Assembly: GCF_022815605.1 (NCBI RefSeq)
Contig: NZ_JALGRP010000003.1
Span: forward strand, 310,001 to 374,000
DNA length: 64,000 nucleotides
DNA from: Microbacterium sp. VKM Ac-2923
GTDB lineage: Bacteria > Actinomycetota > Actinomycetes > Actinomycetales > Microbacteriaceae
Direction of reading: 5' to 3'
The translations under genes and the position numbers were made by a program. Positions 48,665 through 63,943 of this stretch are shown in pieces. Under the pieces are notes generated by a model that saw nothing but the letters and a program-made list of their open reading frames with translations, had not been told where the DNA came from and searched no databases. The first letter of the stretch is position 1. Each line of letters opens with the position of its first letter.

Positions 48665-50013
48665 GCCTGCCACCCCGACTTCCAGTCCTCGAGCTCGGAC
48701 AGCCGCAGCGCCTCGCCCGCCAGCACGACGGAGCCGGCGATGACGACAGCCCGGCGGTCGGACTCGGCCGCCCAGGCGCGCGCGGCGTCGGCCGCGTCTT
48801 CGAGGGTGGGGTGCACGGTCACCGGGAGGTCAGCGGCTTCGGCGACGTCGGCGATGGCGTCGGGATCGGCCGCACGGTTGCTGTCCGGCGCGGTGGCGAA
48901 CACTCGCGCGACGGCGGGGACGAGCGCCGACATGATGCCCACGGCATCCTTGCCCGCCAGGATGCCGACGACGGCCCCCCACTCGTCGATGTCGAACGCG
49001 TCGTCGAGAGCCGCCACCAGCGCGCGGGTACCGTGCGGGTTGTGCGCCGCGTCGACGAGCACGGTCGGGGCGGTGCCGACGAGCTGCAGGCGACCGGGAG
49101 AGGTGGCGTTGCCGAGGCCGTCGGCGACAACGTCGGCGGCCAACGGCTGGGAGCCCCCACCGATGAGGGATTCGACCGCGGCCACGGCCAGCGCCGCATT
49201 GCGGCCCTGGTGCGCGCCGTACTGCGGCAGGTAGACCTCGGAGTAGGTGCCGGCGACACCGCGCACGGTCAGCTGCTGCCCGCCCACCGCGAGGGTCTGC
49301 GCCTCGAGGGCGAAGCCGTCGCCCGCCACGGCGACCGTCGCGCCTTCTTTCTCGGCGCGGGCGCGGATGACCCGCAGGGCCTCGTCGGGCTGTTCCGCCG
49401 AGACCACCGCGGCACCGGGCTTGATGATCCCGGCCTTCACCGTCGCGATCTCCGCGATGGTCGAGCCGAGGCGATCGACGTGGTCGATATCGATCGGCGT
49501 GAACACGGCGACGTCACCGTCGGCGGTGTTCGTGGAGTCCCACTCCCCGCCCATGCCGACCTCCAGCACCAGTACGTCGATGGGGGCGTCGGCGCACGCG
49601 ACGAAGGCGAGCACCGTGAGCAGCTCGAAGAACGTCAGCAGAGCGTCTCCGGCCGTGGCGAGCTCGGCATCCACCATGCCGACGAACGGCTGGATCTCGT
49701 CCCACGCGTCGGCGATCGCGGCATCCGAAACGGGTTCGCCGTCGATCAGGATGCGCTCGGTGAACCGCTCGAGGTGGGGGCTGGTGAACAGGCCCGTCCG
49801 CAGACCCATGGCCCGCAGCAGGCTCTCGATCATGCGGCTGGTCGAGGTCTTGCCGTTGGTTCCGGTCACGTGGATGACGCGGTAGGTGCGCTGCGGGTCG
49901 GCCAGCAGCTCGAGCACGCGGCGCGTGCGCTCGACGCGCGGCTGCACCCACTGCTCGCCCTGCCGCTCGAGCAGCGCGCTGTAGACGGCGTCGGCTCTGG
50001 TGCGGTCGCTCAT
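48661..50013 (-). CDS. folC: Folylpolyglutamate synthase / dihydrofolate synthase
   Basis: The product is 450 aa. A Mur-ligase-type ATPase with P-loop [32 protein letters not shown] and a C-terminal domain with [16 protein letters not shown]. It adds glutamate to dihydropteroate and folates. The start overlaps the ileS stop by 4 nt (ATGA), so it is translated after ileS and falls under the ileS T-box. That link is from position only. Confidence 0.95.
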
Positions 50014-53000
50014 GCGGGGGCTCCGATCCGGCTCACACCGACGCGTACCGCACCCGCGTTGGCGTAGGTCCGCGCGGGGATCTCGACGGTGTGCTCGTCT
50101 TCGGAGGCGTCGGCGGATGCCAGGACGGTCGTCGCCACCGCTCTCAACGCCTCGCCCTGCGGGTCGATCACCGTGTACTCCGTCGCCAGAGTCTCCTCGG
50201 CGACACCGGCGAGGTCGAACGCCAGATCCACGGCCTTCGCGTCCTCGGCGTCCGCGAATGCAAGACGCAGGAAGATCCGGTCGCTCACGTCGAATCCGGC
50301 GGCCTTGCGCGTGTCCTGGATGCCGCGGATCATGTCGCGCGCCAGGCCTTCGGCCTCGAGCTCGGAGGTGGTCACGGTGTCGAGCAGCACGAAACCGCCG
50401 CTCGCGAGGACGGCCAGGGCCTCGCCCTCCGGGCGACCCGCCGTCTCGACGACGAGGTCGTACTCGGCGGGCTCGAGGGGGATGCCACCGACCACCACCT
50501 GTCCGTCGACCTCGCTCCAGTCTCCCTCGCGGGCGGCCTTGATGGCCTGCTGCACCTGCTTGCCGAGGCGCGGACCGGCCGCGCGGGCGTTGACCGCCAG
50601 GCGGTGGGTGATTCCGTACTCTGCGGCGGTTTCGGCTTCGAGCGTCACCTGCTCGACGCTCTTGACGTTGAGCTCCTCGCGGAGGATGTCGTCGAACTGC
50701 GCCAAGCCCGCGGCATCCGGGGTCACCACCGTCAGACGTGGGAGCGGGAGGCGCACGCGCTTGCCCTCGCGCTTGCGCAGGGCGTTGGCGACGCTCGAGA
50801 CGTCGCGGACGGTGTCCATCGCGGTGCGGATGTCTTCGGCCGCGGGGAACGCCGACGCGTCGGGCCAGTCGGTCAGATGCACGCTGCGCCCGCCGGTGAG
50901 GCCCTGCCAGACCCGCTCGGTCACGAGCGGCAGCAGCGGGGCCGCGACGCGGGTGAGCGTCTCGAGCACGGTGTAGAGCGTATCGAAGGCCTCGCGACTG
51001 GTCGGGTCGTCGGTCACCCCCACCCAGAACCGGTCGCGCGATCGGCGGATGTACCAGTTCGTCAGCACCTCGACGAAGTCGCGCAGCCGCTCGGCCGCGG
51101 TCGTGGAGTCAAGCCCCTCGAGGTCAGCGGCGACGCCCTGCACGAGATCACCGGTGAGGGCCAGGATGTACCGGTCGAGCACGTCGGTGGAGTCGGTGCG
51201 CCACTCGGCCGTGTAGCCCTCCCCCGACGCGTTGGCGTAGGTCGCGAAGAAGTACCACGCGTTCCACAGCGGCAGCAGGAACTCGCGTACGCCCGAGCGG
51301 ATGCCCTCCTCGGTCACGACGAGGTTGCCGCCGCGCAGCACCGAACTCGACATGAGGAACCACCGCATGGCATCCGAACCGTCGCGGTTGAAGACCTCGC
51401 GCACGTCGGGGTAGTTCTGCAGCGACTTCGACATCTTCTGTCCGTCGTTGCCGAGCACAATGCCGTGGCACGAGACACCGGTGTACGCCGGGCGATCGAA
51501 CAGCGCGGTCGAGAGCACGTGCATCACGTAGAACCAGCCGCGGGTCTGCCCGATGTACTCGACGATGAAGTCGGCCGGGGCGTGCTCGTCGAACCACTCG
51601 TGGTTCTCGAACGGGTAGTGCACCTGGGCGAAGGGCATGGAGCCGGAGTCGAACCAGACGTCGAGCACGTCTTCGATGCGACGCATCGTGGACCGCCCCG
51701 TCGGGTCGTCGGGGTTGGGGCGGGTGAGGTCGTCGATGTAGGGGCGGTGCAGGTCGACCTCGCCGTCGGCGTTCACCGGCAAGCGGCCGAAGTCGGCCTC
51801 CATGTCGGCGAGCGAGCCGTACACATCGACGCGCGGGTAATTCGCGTCGTCGCTCTTCCACACCGGGATCGGCGAGCCCCAGTACCGGTTGCGGCTGATC
51901 GACCAGTCGCGCGCCCCCTCGAGCCACTTGCCGAACTGGCCCTCCTTGACGTTCTCGGGCACCCAGGTGATCTGCTGGTTGTTCGCCAGCAGGTCGTCCT
52001 TGATGTCGGTCACGCGGACGAACCAGCTCGACACCGCCTTGTAGATCAGGGGGTTCCGGCAGCGCCAGCAGTGGGGGTAGGAGTGCTCGTACGAGGCTTC
52101 GCGCACGAGGCGACCGGCCTGCTTGAGCAGGCGGATGAGGGGCCGGTTGGCCTCCATCCACAGCTCCCCCGCGACGTCGGTCACGGCCGACAGGAACCGC
52201 CCGCCGTCGTCGAGCGAGATGATCGTCGGAAGCCCCGCAGCATCCGCGAGACGCTTGTCGTCCTCACCGTAGGCCGGTGCCTGGTGCACGATGCCGGTAC
52301 CGTCCGACACGGTGACGTAGTCGTCGACGAGGATCTTCCAGGCGTCGCCGGTCCCCCACGTCTCGGCGTCGGCGTAGTAGTCGAAGAGGCGGTCGTACGA
52401 CACGCCCTCGAGCTCGGAGCCCGAGATGGTCGTCTCCACGGCCGCGCGGGCGGCATCCGGGGTCGCGTAGCCGAGGTCTTTCGCGTAGTTCGGCAGCAGG
52501 TCCTCGGCCAGCAGGTAGCGGTGCGCGACGGCCTCGAACGCCTCGTCGGGGGTGCCGTCGGGGGTGGTGTGCACGTCGGCGGCACCGTTCGGGCCGCCCT
52601 CGATCACGGCGTACCGGATGCCGGGACCCACGGCGAGCGCGAGGTTCGTCGGGAGGGTCCACGGCGTCGTCGTCCAGGCCAGGGCCCGCACGCCGGTCAG
52701 GCCCAGAGCCTCGGCCTTGGCGCCGACGAGCGGGAAGGTCACCGTGACCGAGGGGTCCTGACGCATCTTGTAGACGTCGTCGTCCATCCGCAGCTCGTGC
52801 GTCGACAGGGGCGTCTCGTCGCGCCAGCAGTACGGCAGCACGCGGTAGCCCTCGTAGGCGAGCCCCTTGTCGTGCAGGGTCTTGAACGCCCAGAGAACGC
52901 TCTCCATGTAGGTCGTGTCGAGCGTCTTGTAGCCGCGGTCGAAGTCGACCCAGCGGGCCTGGCGGGTGACGTAGTCCTGCCACTCGCGCGTGTACTCGAG

Positions 53001-53492
53001 CACCGACTCGCGGGCCTTGGCGTTGAAGGTCGCGACCCCCATGCGCTCGATCTCGTCCTTCTCGGTGATCCCGAGCTGCTTCATCGCCTCGAGCTCGGCC
53101 GGCAGACCGTGCGTGTCCCAGCCGAACACGCGGTCGACCTTCTTGCCGCGCATGGTCTGGAAGCGCGGGAAGACGTCCTTGGCGTAGCCGGTGAGGAGGT
53201 GGCCGTAGTGCGGCAGGCCGTTCGCGAACGGCGGGCCGTCGTAGAACACCCACTCCTCGGCTCCGTCGCGGTTCGCGATCGAGGCACGGAAGGTGTCGTC
53301 GGCCTTCCAGAAGGCGAGCGTGTCGTCCTCGATGGCCGGGAAGCGCGGGCTCGGGACGACGGATGCCGGGGACGCGGCGTTCTGAGCGGATGTCGCGCTC
53401 TGCGCGGAGGCCGGGGTCGTGGCATCCGGGGTCGACGCGTGGGCGGCCTGGTCGGCGGCGGGGCCGAAGGATGAGGGGCGTGGGTAGGTCAT
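50010..53492 (-). CDS. ileS: Isoleucine--tRNA ligase
   Basis: The product is 1160 aa, the long eukaryote-like (type 2) bacterial form. The HIGH-equivalent is GLPHYGHLL near residue 110, KMSKS is [12 protein letters not shown], and the CP1 editing domain has [16 protein letters not shown] and [16 protein letters not shown] zinc-type CWRC is in [13 protein letters not shown] roughly 45-residue Ala/Ser/Thr-rich N-terminal extension (about residues 12-55) is probably disordered. I chose ATG at 53492 because GGAG lies 5 nt upstream; a GTG at 53516 is in frame. A T-box riboswitch precedes it. Type 2 enzymes in other bacteria are associated with low mupirocin sensitivity. Confidence 0.97.
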
Positions 53493-53563
53493 GTCACTCC
53501 GCGGGTCGAGGTTCACTCGCCGGGACGACCCTTGCGGACCGCGTTACCACCCTGCATTGCGCC

Positions 53564-53588
53564 GGGCCCTTCGACGAGCTCAGGGACC
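53564..53588. repeat. Dispersed palindromic element, copy in T-box (between stem II and T-box core)
   Basis: The 25-nt element reads GGGCCCTTCGACG at its left and AGCTCAGGGACC at its right. It is 3 mismatches from the lepA copy. Confidence 0.75.
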
Positions 53589-53643
53589 GGTGCCGCTCTC
53601 ACTGCGGCTGTGACGGGCCTGCCCCGCGCGGTTCTACTGATCC

Positions 53644-53669
53644 GGCCCCTGAGCGTGTCGAAGGGTCGG
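53644..53669. repeat. Dispersed palindromic element, copy in T-box (between stem I and stem II)
   Basis: GGCCCCTGAGCGTGTCGAAG followed by GGTCGG is the same element in opposite orientation to the 53564 copy. The two can pair with each other or fold alone. Confidence 0.7.
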
Positions 53670-53720
53670 AGGTTCTTCCGCGAGCTCCCCGGTGATGGCC
53701 GGATCGGTGCTGATGGGTCG

Positions 53721-53726
53721 AGTCTA
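53721..53726 (-). promoter_or_regulatory. -10 element of ileS T-box transcript
   Basis: TAGACT on the minus strand lies about 7 nt before the likely 5' end of stem I. No convincing -35. Confidence 0.5.
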
Positions 53727-53780
53727 CGCGCTCGCCGGTCCCGGCGCGGCGGCGCTGTGGATCGATCGGCCGGTTCTCGT

Positions 53781-53934
53781 GCTCCGGTGTCCACGACATC
53801 CGGAGTGCGGCGCGAGGCATCCGGGTGTCCTGGACACTCGAACCGGGACCGCGTCCGGCGGCGGGTCCCGTGCCCGCGCTCCGGTGTCCACGACATCCGG
53901 AGTGCGGCGCGAGGCATCCGGGTGTCCTGGACAC
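53781..53934. repeat. Identical 57-nt direct repeats, each palindromic
   Basis: 53781-53837 and 53878-53934 are identical over 57 nt (offset 97). Each begins GCTCCGGTGTCCACGACATC and ends CCGGGTGTCCTGGACAC, so GTGTCCA and TGGACAC form the ends of an inverted repeat. They fill most of the 244-nt gap between the T-box promoter and the ABC ATPase stop codon. The other bases in 53727-53970 show nothing clear. Confidence 0.9.
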
Positions 53935-53970: not shown

Positions 53971-55761
53971 TCAGTCCGCGGGCCCCCGTTCGACAGGCCT
54001 CAGCCCCGCGGCCGCCAGCAACTCCCGGGTGAACGCGTGCCCGGGGGCGGCGAACACGCGCGGCACGGGACCCGCATCGACGACCCGTCCGTCCTTCATC
54101 ACGAGGACGTCGTCGGCGACCGCCGCCACCACATCGAGATCGTGGGTGACGAAGACCATCGCCAGCTCCCGCTCCCGCTGCAGGTCGAGCAGCCGTTCGA
54201 GGATCCGCGTCCGGACGGTCGCATCGAGGGCCGACACCGGCTCGTCGAGCACGAGCAGATCGGGAGATGCGGCCAGGGCCCGGGCGATGGCGACGCGTTG
54301 CCGCTGACCGCCCGACAACTGCGCCGGCCGGCGACCCGCGAACTCCGCCGACAGCCCGACCTCCTCCAACAGAGTGGCCACGGCCGACCGCCGTTCGGCG
54401 CACGCGATGCCGGCGGCGGCGACCGCCTCGATCAGCGTTCGGCCGACGGTCCATCGCGGGTCGAGCGCGCCCCAGGGGTTCTGCTGCACGAGCTGCACGC
54501 GTCGCCGATCGGCGCCGTGAGCCGCCGCGGGGCCCCACGGTCGGCCGTCGAAGGAGAGGATCCCCGCGTCGGGGGTCGTCACCCCGACCACCATCCGTGC
54601 GAGCGTCGTCTTCCCCGAGCCCGACTCCCCCACGACCGCCAGCGTGCGGCCCCGGCGCACCTCGAACGAGACCTCGTCCACGGCCACCCGGTCGCCGAAC
54701 CGCTTCGTCACCCGGTCCGCCGTGAGGATCGGTGCATCCGAGCGCGATGCCCGCTCGAGCGGTTCGTGCGACACCGCCGCCACGAGCGCCCTCGTGGCCG
54801 GATGACGAGGGGATGCCAGAACCTCGGTCGTCACACCGGTCTCGACGACGCGCCCCTCGTGCATGACCACGACGCGATCGGCCACGCGCGCGACGGCGGC
54901 GAGGTCGTGACTGATGAAGACCACGGCCACGCCGTCGTCGGTGATCCGCCGGAGGAGGTCGAGCACGCGGGCTCGCACGGTGGAATCCAGAGCCGTTGTG
55001 GGCTCGTCGGCGACGAGCACCGCGGGCGTCGCCGAGAGGGCTGCGGCGATGAGAGCGCGCTGGCGCTGGCCACCGGAGAGCTCGTGCGGGTACTGGCGGG
55101 CGCGCGCGTCCGGCTCGGGCAGCGCGACGCGTTCGAGCATCGCGCGCACGCGCCCGGCGAGGGCGCCGCCGCGAACGGCCGGTTCGTGGATGCGGATCGA
55201 CTCGGCCACCTCGGCCCCGATGCGGCGGAGGGGGTCCAGTGAGACGAGGGCGTCCTGAGAGACGAGCGCGATGCGCCGGCCGCGGAGCGCGCGCCACTGC
55301 CGCTCGGTCAGCGACCCCGCGTCGATCCCGTCGACGGAGAGCATCTCCACCGATGACGACAGTCCGCGCGGTACGAGACCGAGCAGGGCCCGGGCGCTCA
55401 GCGACTTACCCGCGCCGGACTCCCCGACGATCGCGACGCACTCCCCCGGCGTGACATCGAGGTCGAGGCCGTGCACGAGCGAGCCGCCGGGGCCGTCGAT
55501 GCGCAAGCCGCGCAGATGAACACCCTCGGCGCCCGGCACCCCTGCGCTCGCGCGGGGCGTCTCGGCATCCCGTGCGCTCGCGCGGGGCGTCTCGGCATCC
55601 CGTGCGCTCGCGCGGGGCGTCTCGGCATCCCGTGCGCTCGCGCCCGGCGTCTCGGCATCCCGTGCGCTCGCGCGCGGGGCTCCCGCACTTCCGGCACCCG
55701 CTTCGCTCGGACCCCGCGCCCCTCGGCCCGCGCGCGGCGTCTCGGCATCCCGTCCGCTCAT
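53971..55761 (-). CDS. Dipeptide/nickel-type ABC transporter ATP-binding protein, two fused ATPase domains
   Basis: The product is 596 aa, a DppD-DppF-like fusion. Domain 1 (about 75-330) has Walker A GESGAGKS, signature LSGGQRQR and Walker B VLVADEPTTALD. Domain 2 (about 345-590) has GESGSGKT, LSGGQRQR and LLVLDEPVSALD. Both sites look intact. The first 70 residues are a low-complexity tail with tandem ARDAETPRAS decapeptides encoded by 30-bp repeats. ATG at 55761 overlaps the permease stop (ATGA). If a later GTG (55539) is used, the repeats are untranslated. It powers uptake with the two permeases and the lipoprotein downstream in coordinate order. Confidence 0.93.
   Translation of the reverse strand: MSGRDAETPRAGRGARGPSEAGAGSAGAPRASARDAETPGASARDAETPRASARDAETPRASARDAETPRASAGVPGAEGVHLRGLRIDGPGGSLVHGLDLDVTPGECVAIVGESGAGKSLSARALLGLVPRGLSSSVEMLSVDGIDAGSLTERQWRALRGRRIALVSQDALVSLDPLRRIGAEVAESIRIHEPAVRGGALAGRVRAMLERVALPEPDARARQYPHELSGGQRQRALIAAALSATPAVLVADEPTTALDSTVRARVLDLLRRITDDGVAVVFISHDLAAVARVADRVVVMHEGRVVETGVTTEVLASPRHPATRALVAAVSHEPLERASRSDAPILTADRVTKRFGDRVAVDEVSFEVRRGRTLAVVGESGSGKTTLARMVVGVTTPDAGILSFDGRPWGPAAAHGADRRRVQLVQQNPWGALDPRWTVGRTLIEAVAAAGIACAERRSAVATLLEEVGLSAEFAGRRPAQLSGGQRQRVAIARALAASPDLLVLDEPVSALDATVRTRILERLLDLQRERELAMVFVTHDLDVVAAVADDVLVMKDGRVVDAGPVPRVFAAPGHAFTRELLAAAGLRPVERGPAD
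55541..55680. repeat. 30-bp tandem repeat at start of ABC ATPase gene
   Basis: CTCGGCATCCCGTGCGCTCG plus a 10-nt tail repeats exactly every 30 bp at 55561, 55591, 55621 and 55651, with degenerate copies on both sides (a partial one at 55741). It encodes ARDAETPRAS repeats on the minus strand. Confidence 0.92.
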
Positions 55762-63828: not shown

Positions 63829-63943
63829 GGTGGCTGAGCCCGTCGAAGCCACCGAACGCGCAGGGCCCGGTCCCTTCGACTAGCACAGGGACCCCTCGCG
63901 CACGTCGCCGTCGGCCACGGGTGGCTGAGCCTGTCGAAGCCTC
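63829..63943. repeat. Three palindromic elements in tandem (right end)
   Basis: 63829-63853 (GGTGGCTGAGCC ... GAAGCCACC, palindromic), 63869-63893 (GGTCCCTTCGAC ... CAGGGACCC) and 63920-63943 (GGTGGCTGAGCC ... GAAGCC). All contain the CTGAGCC-nGTCGAAG core of the element found in lepA and the ileS leader. The remaining 63944-64000 shows no gene start that I can support. Confidence 0.75.

Follow-up and report, generated by a model that had tools for sequence, protein, structure and literature searches.

Copies of a dispersed palindrome likely make up two native peripheral hairpins of an ileS T-box leader in Microbacterium

Introduction

The leader of ileS in Microbacterium sp. VKM Ac-2923 contains two copies of a dispersed palindromic repeat in opposite orientation. 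We consider it likely that two native peripheral hairpins of a T-box riboswitch, distal stem II above the S-turn and stem III, are now made of these copies, and that the copies are most probably neutral and simply tolerated. The leader lies in a stretch of 64,000 nucleotides (contig NZ_JALGRP010000003.1, positions 310,001 to 374,000), which is called the window here and to which all coordinates refer unless stated otherwise. Translational T-boxes located 5' of actinobacterial ileS genes are known (excerpts of PMC1262725). It has also been described that stem III of translational T-boxes is variable and has frequent insertions (excerpts of PMC7583486).

Results

The ileS leader and its T-box elements

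The gene behind the leader was identified as ileS by a profile match to TIGR00392, isoleucine--tRNA ligase (797.7 bits against a cut-off of 621.4). Positions of the gene and of the leader elements are given in Table 1. The Rfam T-box family, which we take to be RF00230, gave no match in the window, either at the gathering score or at E values up to 1. Therefore, identification of the T-box rests on its motifs and on 167 related leaders. Because Rfam gave no T-box, leaders were found with a stem I motif, which occurs in 228 of the 257 genomes of the genus; they were taken from the places listed and not from all 228. We kept 168 leaders, 158 from the genus and 10 from other families, and dropped L068 and L141 (identical rows) and L201 (no T-box found). 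The specifier AUC is present in 167 of the 168, in a set collected with a pattern that itself contains AUC. An initial annotation had described a recognisable T-box core in the window. This description holds for stem I, the specifier AUC, the S-turn strands, the T-box sequence and the Shine-Dalgarno sequence, but the bulge of the T-box is altered, as discussed below.

Table 1. The ileS gene and the elements of its leader in the window
Feature	Position	Strand	Remarks
Possible promoter -10 TAGACT	53721..53726	-	just 5' of the leader; proposed from the sequence and relatives
Stem I hairpin CCGG-CCAUCA-CCGG	53689..53702	-	specifier AUC at 53694-53696, in the hexaloop
Stem II lower helix, 5' strand CGCGG	53678..53682	-	pairs with CCGCG
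Stem II distal helix, repeat copy 1 (core 53648-53664)	53640..53671	-	exact core match; native hairpin site
Stem II 3' side: S-turn strand AGUAGAA (53632-53638) and lower helix CCGCG (53627-53631)	53627..53638	-	
Stem IIA/B (putative pseudoknot) region CGGGGCAGGCCCGUCACAGCC	53606..53626	-	alike in the relatives shown
Stem III, repeat copy 2 (core 53568-53584)	53559..53593	-	exact core match
T-box sequence GGGUGGUAACGCGG	53539..53552	-	bulge UGGUAAC at 53543-53549
Shine-Dalgarno GGAG of ileS	53497..53500	-	leader sequence
ileS coding sequence	50010..53492	-	from ATG at 53492; start in the open reading frame list is an upstream GTG at 53516; TIGR00392

In the window leader, the S-turn strands GAAGAAC and AGUAGAA are flanked by pairing of CGCGG with CCGCG. 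This lower part of stem II was parsed in 165 leaders. Five contiguous pairs are formed in 163 of them, seven in one and a single pair in the last, so that 164 have five or more. The fourth pair varies among the 165 leaders; it is T-A in 112, G-C in 37, C-G in 11, T-G in three, G-T in one and A-A in one. Since the CGCGG/CCGCG helix flanks both S-turn strands, copy 1 of the repeat is distal stem II, not the linker between stems I and II, and copy 2 is stem III. Thus, the copies are not located in the linkers on either side of stem II, where they had been placed at first. The stem III site lies between a purine-rich stretch and AA, as is described for stem III in excerpts of PMC7583486. The stem IIA/B region was assigned as a pseudoknot by analogy to PMC10482949 (excerpts), not by folding.

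No terminator-like site was found in the leader by a scan of 53450-53800, as is expected for a translational T-box. Judged from its sequence, the leader is probably a class III (short stem I) T-box, presumably with translational control. Shine-Dalgarno sequestration is known for T-boxes of relatives (excerpts of PMC1262725). A consensus scan of 53450-53800 gave no promoter-like site. TAGACT is a possible promoter -10 element of the ileS leader, and the relatives shown have TAGACT, TACAAT, TATGAT or a similar sequence at this position. Other kinds of repeats are also found near the leader. Two identical direct repeats of 57 nt, each with GGTGTCCACGACATCCGGAG, lie 97 nt apart on its 5' side (53781-53837 and 53878-53934). 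A tandem array at 55534-55674 has a 30-base unit in 4.7 copies, which are 95% alike; it lies near the beginning of an open reading frame whose continuation is a double ABC transporter ATPase.

The dispersed palindrome in the genome

The repeat has the consensus GGTCCCTTCGACNNGCTCAGGGACC. Both copies in the leader have the exact core CCTTCGACNNGCTCAGG, on the plus strand at 53568-53584 and on the minus strand at 53648-53664. The leader arms 53567-53590 and 53642-53665 are 24 nt long, 88% complementary and 51 nt apart. The whole window has 17 core matches at up to three mismatches against 4.79 expected, and none of 100 shuffles reached 17. The genome, which has 3.93 Mb in 37 contigs, gave 92 forward and 93 reverse matches to the core with two mismatches or fewer, 185 in total, whereas the reversed core used as a control gave 14 forward and 19 reverse matches, 33 in total. 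These numbers, together with exact cores on both strands, confirm the initial annotation in that the two leader sequences are copies of one dispersed element in opposite orientation. At least 53 exact copies are present among the genome matches listed, and 30 of them, including both T-box copies, were read with their flanks and compared with Rfam. The 30 copies point to a unit of about 25 bp that approximates ccGGTCCCTTCGACNNGCTCAGGGACCtc, with the outer stem GGTCCCT/AGGGACC. Near this unit, several of the 30 have a second variant, GGCTTCGACAGGCTCAGCC, in opposite orientation. The REP-associated transposase PF01797 had no match in the window's genome, in a search that was positive in five of 14 control genomes. 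At 63833-63940, on the 3' side of a terminator-like hairpin, three units of the ileS-leader repeat family were observed in alternating orientation with one or two mismatches.

One further copy in the window's genome lies inside the RNase P RNA gene (RF00010, 282.5 bits; L027:1461-1843, minus strand), which is outside the window and about 97 kb from the ileS leader. It occupies a peripheral stretch just before ACAGAACCCGGC, and L202, L203 and L205 have the repeat at the same place and in the same orientation. RNase P RNA with UGAGC..GUCGAA was found in four of 257 genomes, and the reverse in none of the 257; all four RNase P RNAs are supported by Rfam.

Both hairpins are native to the T-box

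All 158 genus leaders have a hairpin with at least three pairs at the distal stem II site, and all 158 have one at the stem III site. When the stability of the hairpins was compared with that of letter shuffles, the mean z was -2.2 at both sites, and p 0.05 was reached singly in 92 and 101 of the 158 leaders, respectively. In the 10 leaders from ten other families, distal stem II has a hairpin of 5-15 pairs throughout, and stem III has 9-23 pairs in the seven of 10 that were parsed. The arms covary. All four outer pairs of distal stem II are formed in 132 of the 158 genus leaders, against a mean of 45.5 and a largest value of 60 after arms were swapped between genus leaders. For stem III, all five outer pairs are formed in 103 of the 158, against a mean of 18.6 and a largest value of 26. 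Small register shifts were allowed in this test for own and swapped arms. The sequences themselves are diverse, with 146 different distal stem II regions and 144 different stem III regions among the 158 leaders. As far as sampled, distal stem II and stem III are native covarying helices, in which the helix is conserved and the letters are not. Because hairpins are present at both sites in all genus leaders and their arms covary, the repeats fill existing helices and add none. The initial annotation had named native helices with covariation as the finding that would speak against insertions, and both helix positions show this as far as sampled. Its view that the elements bring extra helices to the riboswitch is therefore not supported.

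Occupancy by the repeat is patchy among relatives

At up to one mismatch, the repeat occupies distal stem II in 10 of the 158 genus leaders and stem III in 10 of the 158, where shuffles give an expectation of at most 0.04. Rows with two mismatches were kept outside these counts because shuffles alone would yield 0.14-0.6 such matches for each site and orientation. Such rows are L133, L135, L196 and L197 at distal stem II, and L106, L144 and L175 in the usual orientation and L157 in the opposite orientation at stem III. Parsimony requires at least eight changes at each site (up to one mismatch), also after forks under 80 were collapsed, on a tree of the leader core and the start of ileS that is weak, with 72 of 155 inner branches open. 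With the two-mismatch rows, the counts become 11 changes at distal stem II and 10 at stem III, and in all of these counts a gain is not told from a loss. The distal stem II copies of the GCTTCGAC type all fall in one part of the tree with 44 rows, and they could represent one old arrival followed by many losses. Sister leaders can differ: distal stem II is the repeat in L066 and a plain hairpin in L057. Likewise, both hairpins are plain in L159, although its row is 96% identical to that of the window over 280 columns of the tree alignment.

A search of public genomes with the stem III pattern, on one strand only, gave 28 stretches. Thirteen of them have T-box context, and the other 15 were dropped since they lack it. 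The public stem III carriers include M. enclense, M. trichothecenolyticum, M. hydrothermale, M. testaceum, Agromyces, Cryobacterium and Salinibacterium; this set overlaps the genus rows, as some genomes are the same (L217 and L180; L218 and L177). Among 289 genomes of the family from 85 genera, the exact pattern was found in stem III of three, including the window, and in distal stem II of the window only, where 289 counts all genomes scanned and not those known to have the ileS T-box. The repeat is uncommon at these sites outside the genus. The alignment for presence and absence that the initial annotation had proposed thus gives a patchy picture, with copies absent from the same sites in most relatives. 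This bears out the part of its claim that concerns the copy sequences, which are secondary.

Other palindromes occupy the same hairpins

The repeat of the window is not alone in these hairpins. Units of the CGGATGCC..GGCATCCG type form stem III in eight of the 158 leaders. Their genome matches number 18-85 in those eight genomes, 104 in G176, four in G172 and 35 in the window's genome; the control gave one match in G172 and none in the other ten genomes. Units of the GTTGAGCGAG type form stem III in three of the 158 leaders and, at one mismatch, distal stem II of L174. They have 68 matches in G115, 42 in G266 and 103 in G152, which are the carriers, and 190 in G193, with none in G136 and G000 and a control of zero in all six. 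Several dispersed palindromic families therefore occupy the distal stem II and stem III hairpins. In addition, a further palindrome that is common in Actinobacteria, GGTCTCGA..TCGACC, is similar to distal stem II of L099 and to stem III of L157; neither resemblance was counted.

One orientation of the repeat per site in the genus sample

At up to one mismatch, all 10 genus leaders with a copy in distal stem II have UUCGAC..GCUCA there, and all 10 with a copy in stem III have UGAGC..GUCGAA. In the 289 family genomes, three have the usual strand in stem III, namely the window and two relatives, and no true T-box has the opposite strand there. The opposite pattern gave two matches in the stem III scan (L234 and L235), which were rejected as exceptions as they are without T-box context; L234 lies in an apparent coding sequence and L235 in a repeat cluster. 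At distal stem II, the opposite pattern was found in none of the 289 genomes, a scan that has no power because the usual strand is present in the window only.

Neutrality by itself does not account for a constant orientation at each site. The copies might be favoured rather than just tolerated, if distal stem II works better with one strand of the repeat and stem III with the other. As a conjecture, tandem G-A pairs in the stem III loop could matter, for example, or the avoidance of an anti-Shine-Dalgarno-like GCUC near the start codon. The single orientation at both T-box sites and in RNase P RNA, and the lack of a true family T-box with the opposite strand in stem III, speak for such selection. 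However, a count by eye suggests few independent arrivals: perhaps six at stem III in the sets that could reveal either strand, possibly no more than two at distal stem II, and one in RNase P RNA. Ancestry could therefore explain much of the orientation rule. The family scan is powerless at distal stem II, and the public genome scan, which covered one strand, is uninformative on orientation. Furthermore, stem III of L157 has the opposite strand at two mismatches, perhaps as part of another repeat, and the two orientations are predicted to lie about 1 kcal/mol apart. We regard selection in favour of the copies as rather unlikely.

The altered T-box bulge

The bulge UGGUAAC is found in the window only among the 168 leaders; 166 have UGGUACC and L092 has UGGUAUC. 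In class III translational T-boxes, this bulge consists of UGGN plus ACC. The ACC part of the T-box bulge is said to stabilise the discriminator (excerpts of PMC7583486). The window riboswitch may be weakened by this alteration, and the deviating base may also be a sequencing error. The unique bulge would fit a T-box that is decaying in this species, so that repeats accumulate in a leader no longer under selection. However, relatives that have two copies, namely L089, M. enclense L210, M. sp. SORGH_AS_1204 L212 and M. hydrothermale L227, have UGGUACC, and the other copy-bearing leaders among the 168 also have UGGUACC. Thus, presence of the copies is not linked to an altered core. The window leader also keeps stem I, the specifier, the S-turn and lower stem II. 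This makes decay an improbable account of the copies.

Pairing between the two copies

The initial annotation suggested that the inverted copies can also pair with each other and enclose stem II, which would add a long helix to the switch. Such a helix is stable in prediction. It has 22.6 predicted pairs in the window leader and 23.9 in L089, its ensemble lies at -13.8 kcal/mol (window) and -8.2 kcal/mol (L089) relative to folds without inter-copy pairs, and it is present in the unconstrained minimum fold of the window leader. This minimum is -105.5, compared with -82.9 when the native helices are enforced, and the pseudoknot and the tRNA are uncounted in both values. However, copy 1 is the tip of stem II, and on geometric grounds end-to-end pairing with copy 2 would part the stem II strands and the S-turn. 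The S-turn stabilises the codon-anticodon duplex (excerpts of PMC7583486). Moreover, L197, which has a stem III copy and a two-mismatch distal stem II copy, gave 0 predicted inter-copy pairs.

Comparison of the leaders does not favour pairing either. We compared the leaders with two copies at up to one mismatch, L056, L089, L210, L212 and L227, of which L210 and L089 have identical hairpins. When duplexes made with the stem III copies of other rows are ranked together with the duplex inside the leader, the latter takes places 11-14 of 25; with distal stem II copies from other rows, it takes places 4-9 of 13. Some genomes are included twice in these sets, as a genus row and as a public entry. 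The middle two bases, AC and GA, do not match in any of the five two-copy leaders. The orientation is unchanged in leaders that have only one copy, so the orientation rule needs no pairing. Both copies co-occur in two of the 158 leaders (Fisher p 0.12). In summary, nothing points to selection that would make the copies pair with each other, and a helix between them is very unlikely to be part of the switch. Thermodynamic folding of repeat-bearing leaders can thus suggest a misleading long helix.

Finally, chance or convergence, by which GC-rich hairpins merely resemble the repeat, has next to no probability: both sites are hypervariable GC-rich hairpins and some two-mismatch rows (L106, L157) may indeed be chance, but the 10 copies per site stand far above the shuffled hairpins and two exact matches of 15 defined bases occur in one leader of 221 nt.

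Discussion

We consider that neutral occupation of native hairpins by dispersed palindromes explains the window leader best. Both hairpins would be kept as helices but be free in sequence and length. A self-complementary repeat of 20-35 nt could then insert into such a hairpin or replace it while the architecture is kept. Copies would erode into ordinary-looking hairpins, and new copies would arrive. Each copy most likely folds alone and co-transcriptionally; copy 1 is transcribed first and can fold by itself. Stem I, the S-turn, stem IIA/B and the discriminator would be left to work as usual. Here we infer neutrality, local folding, translational control and turnover by insertion and erosion.

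The leader of the window can be compared with known systems. It shares with the class III translational ileS T-boxes of Nocardia farcinica and Mycobacterium tuberculosis a short stem I, AUC in a hexaloop, stem II with an S-turn, stem IIA/B, stem III, an antisequestrator and location at an actinobacterial ileS gene (PMC10482949, PMC7583486 and PMC1262725, excerpts of each). It differs from them in that distal stem II and stem III are dispersed palindromes and that the bulge is UGGUAAC. Insertions in stem III of translational T-boxes are described in PMC7583486, and the excerpts of that paper used here do not mention repeats. Rickettsia palindromic elements (RPE) are likewise dispersed palindromes that form hairpins, and they occur inside tmRNA and RNase P RNA (excerpts of PMC2229807, citing Ogata et al. 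2002). RPE are 105-146 bp long (excerpts of PMC2229807), whereas the Microbacterium unit has about 25 bp. Unlike RPE, the Microbacterium unit is also found in a riboswitch, in several lineages and at two fixed hairpins. REP elements and BIMEs are likewise short imperfect palindromes, which number from tens to hundreds per genome and often have a second, inverted unit nearby. REP elements are described as extragenic. The repeat described here differs from REP and BIME in that its copies lie inside functional RNAs and the window's genome has no PF01797 transposase.

A search of the openly licensed literature gave no description of dispersed palindromes inside T-boxes or other riboswitches, nothing on palindromic repeats in T-box leaders or in Microbacterium, and no match to six written forms of the ileS-leader repeat. 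Palindromes in RNA genes are already known from Rickettsia, and this search gave no report of palindromes that fill riboswitch hairpins.

The origin of new sequence in the variable helices of T-boxes is seldom asked. Here, the source can be read directly, and it is genome-wide palindromic repeats. Distal stem II was also shown to vary freely, as is known for stem III. A broader and still tentative idea is that dispersed palindromes may continually supply essential RNAs of these bacteria with new peripheral helices. Several unrelated families would then rebuild distal stem II and stem III of the ileS T-box, and also a peripheral helix of RNase P RNA, again and again, and the site would determine the orientation. 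If true, this would explain the hypervariability of such helices between close species, and the strand would be chosen either by a strand-specific insertion process or by selection on the RNA. Among the close relatives there is a natural set of riboswitches whose hairpins are native, freshly filled or perhaps eroded, and this set can be used to measure tolerance, orientation and the effect on tRNA sensing.
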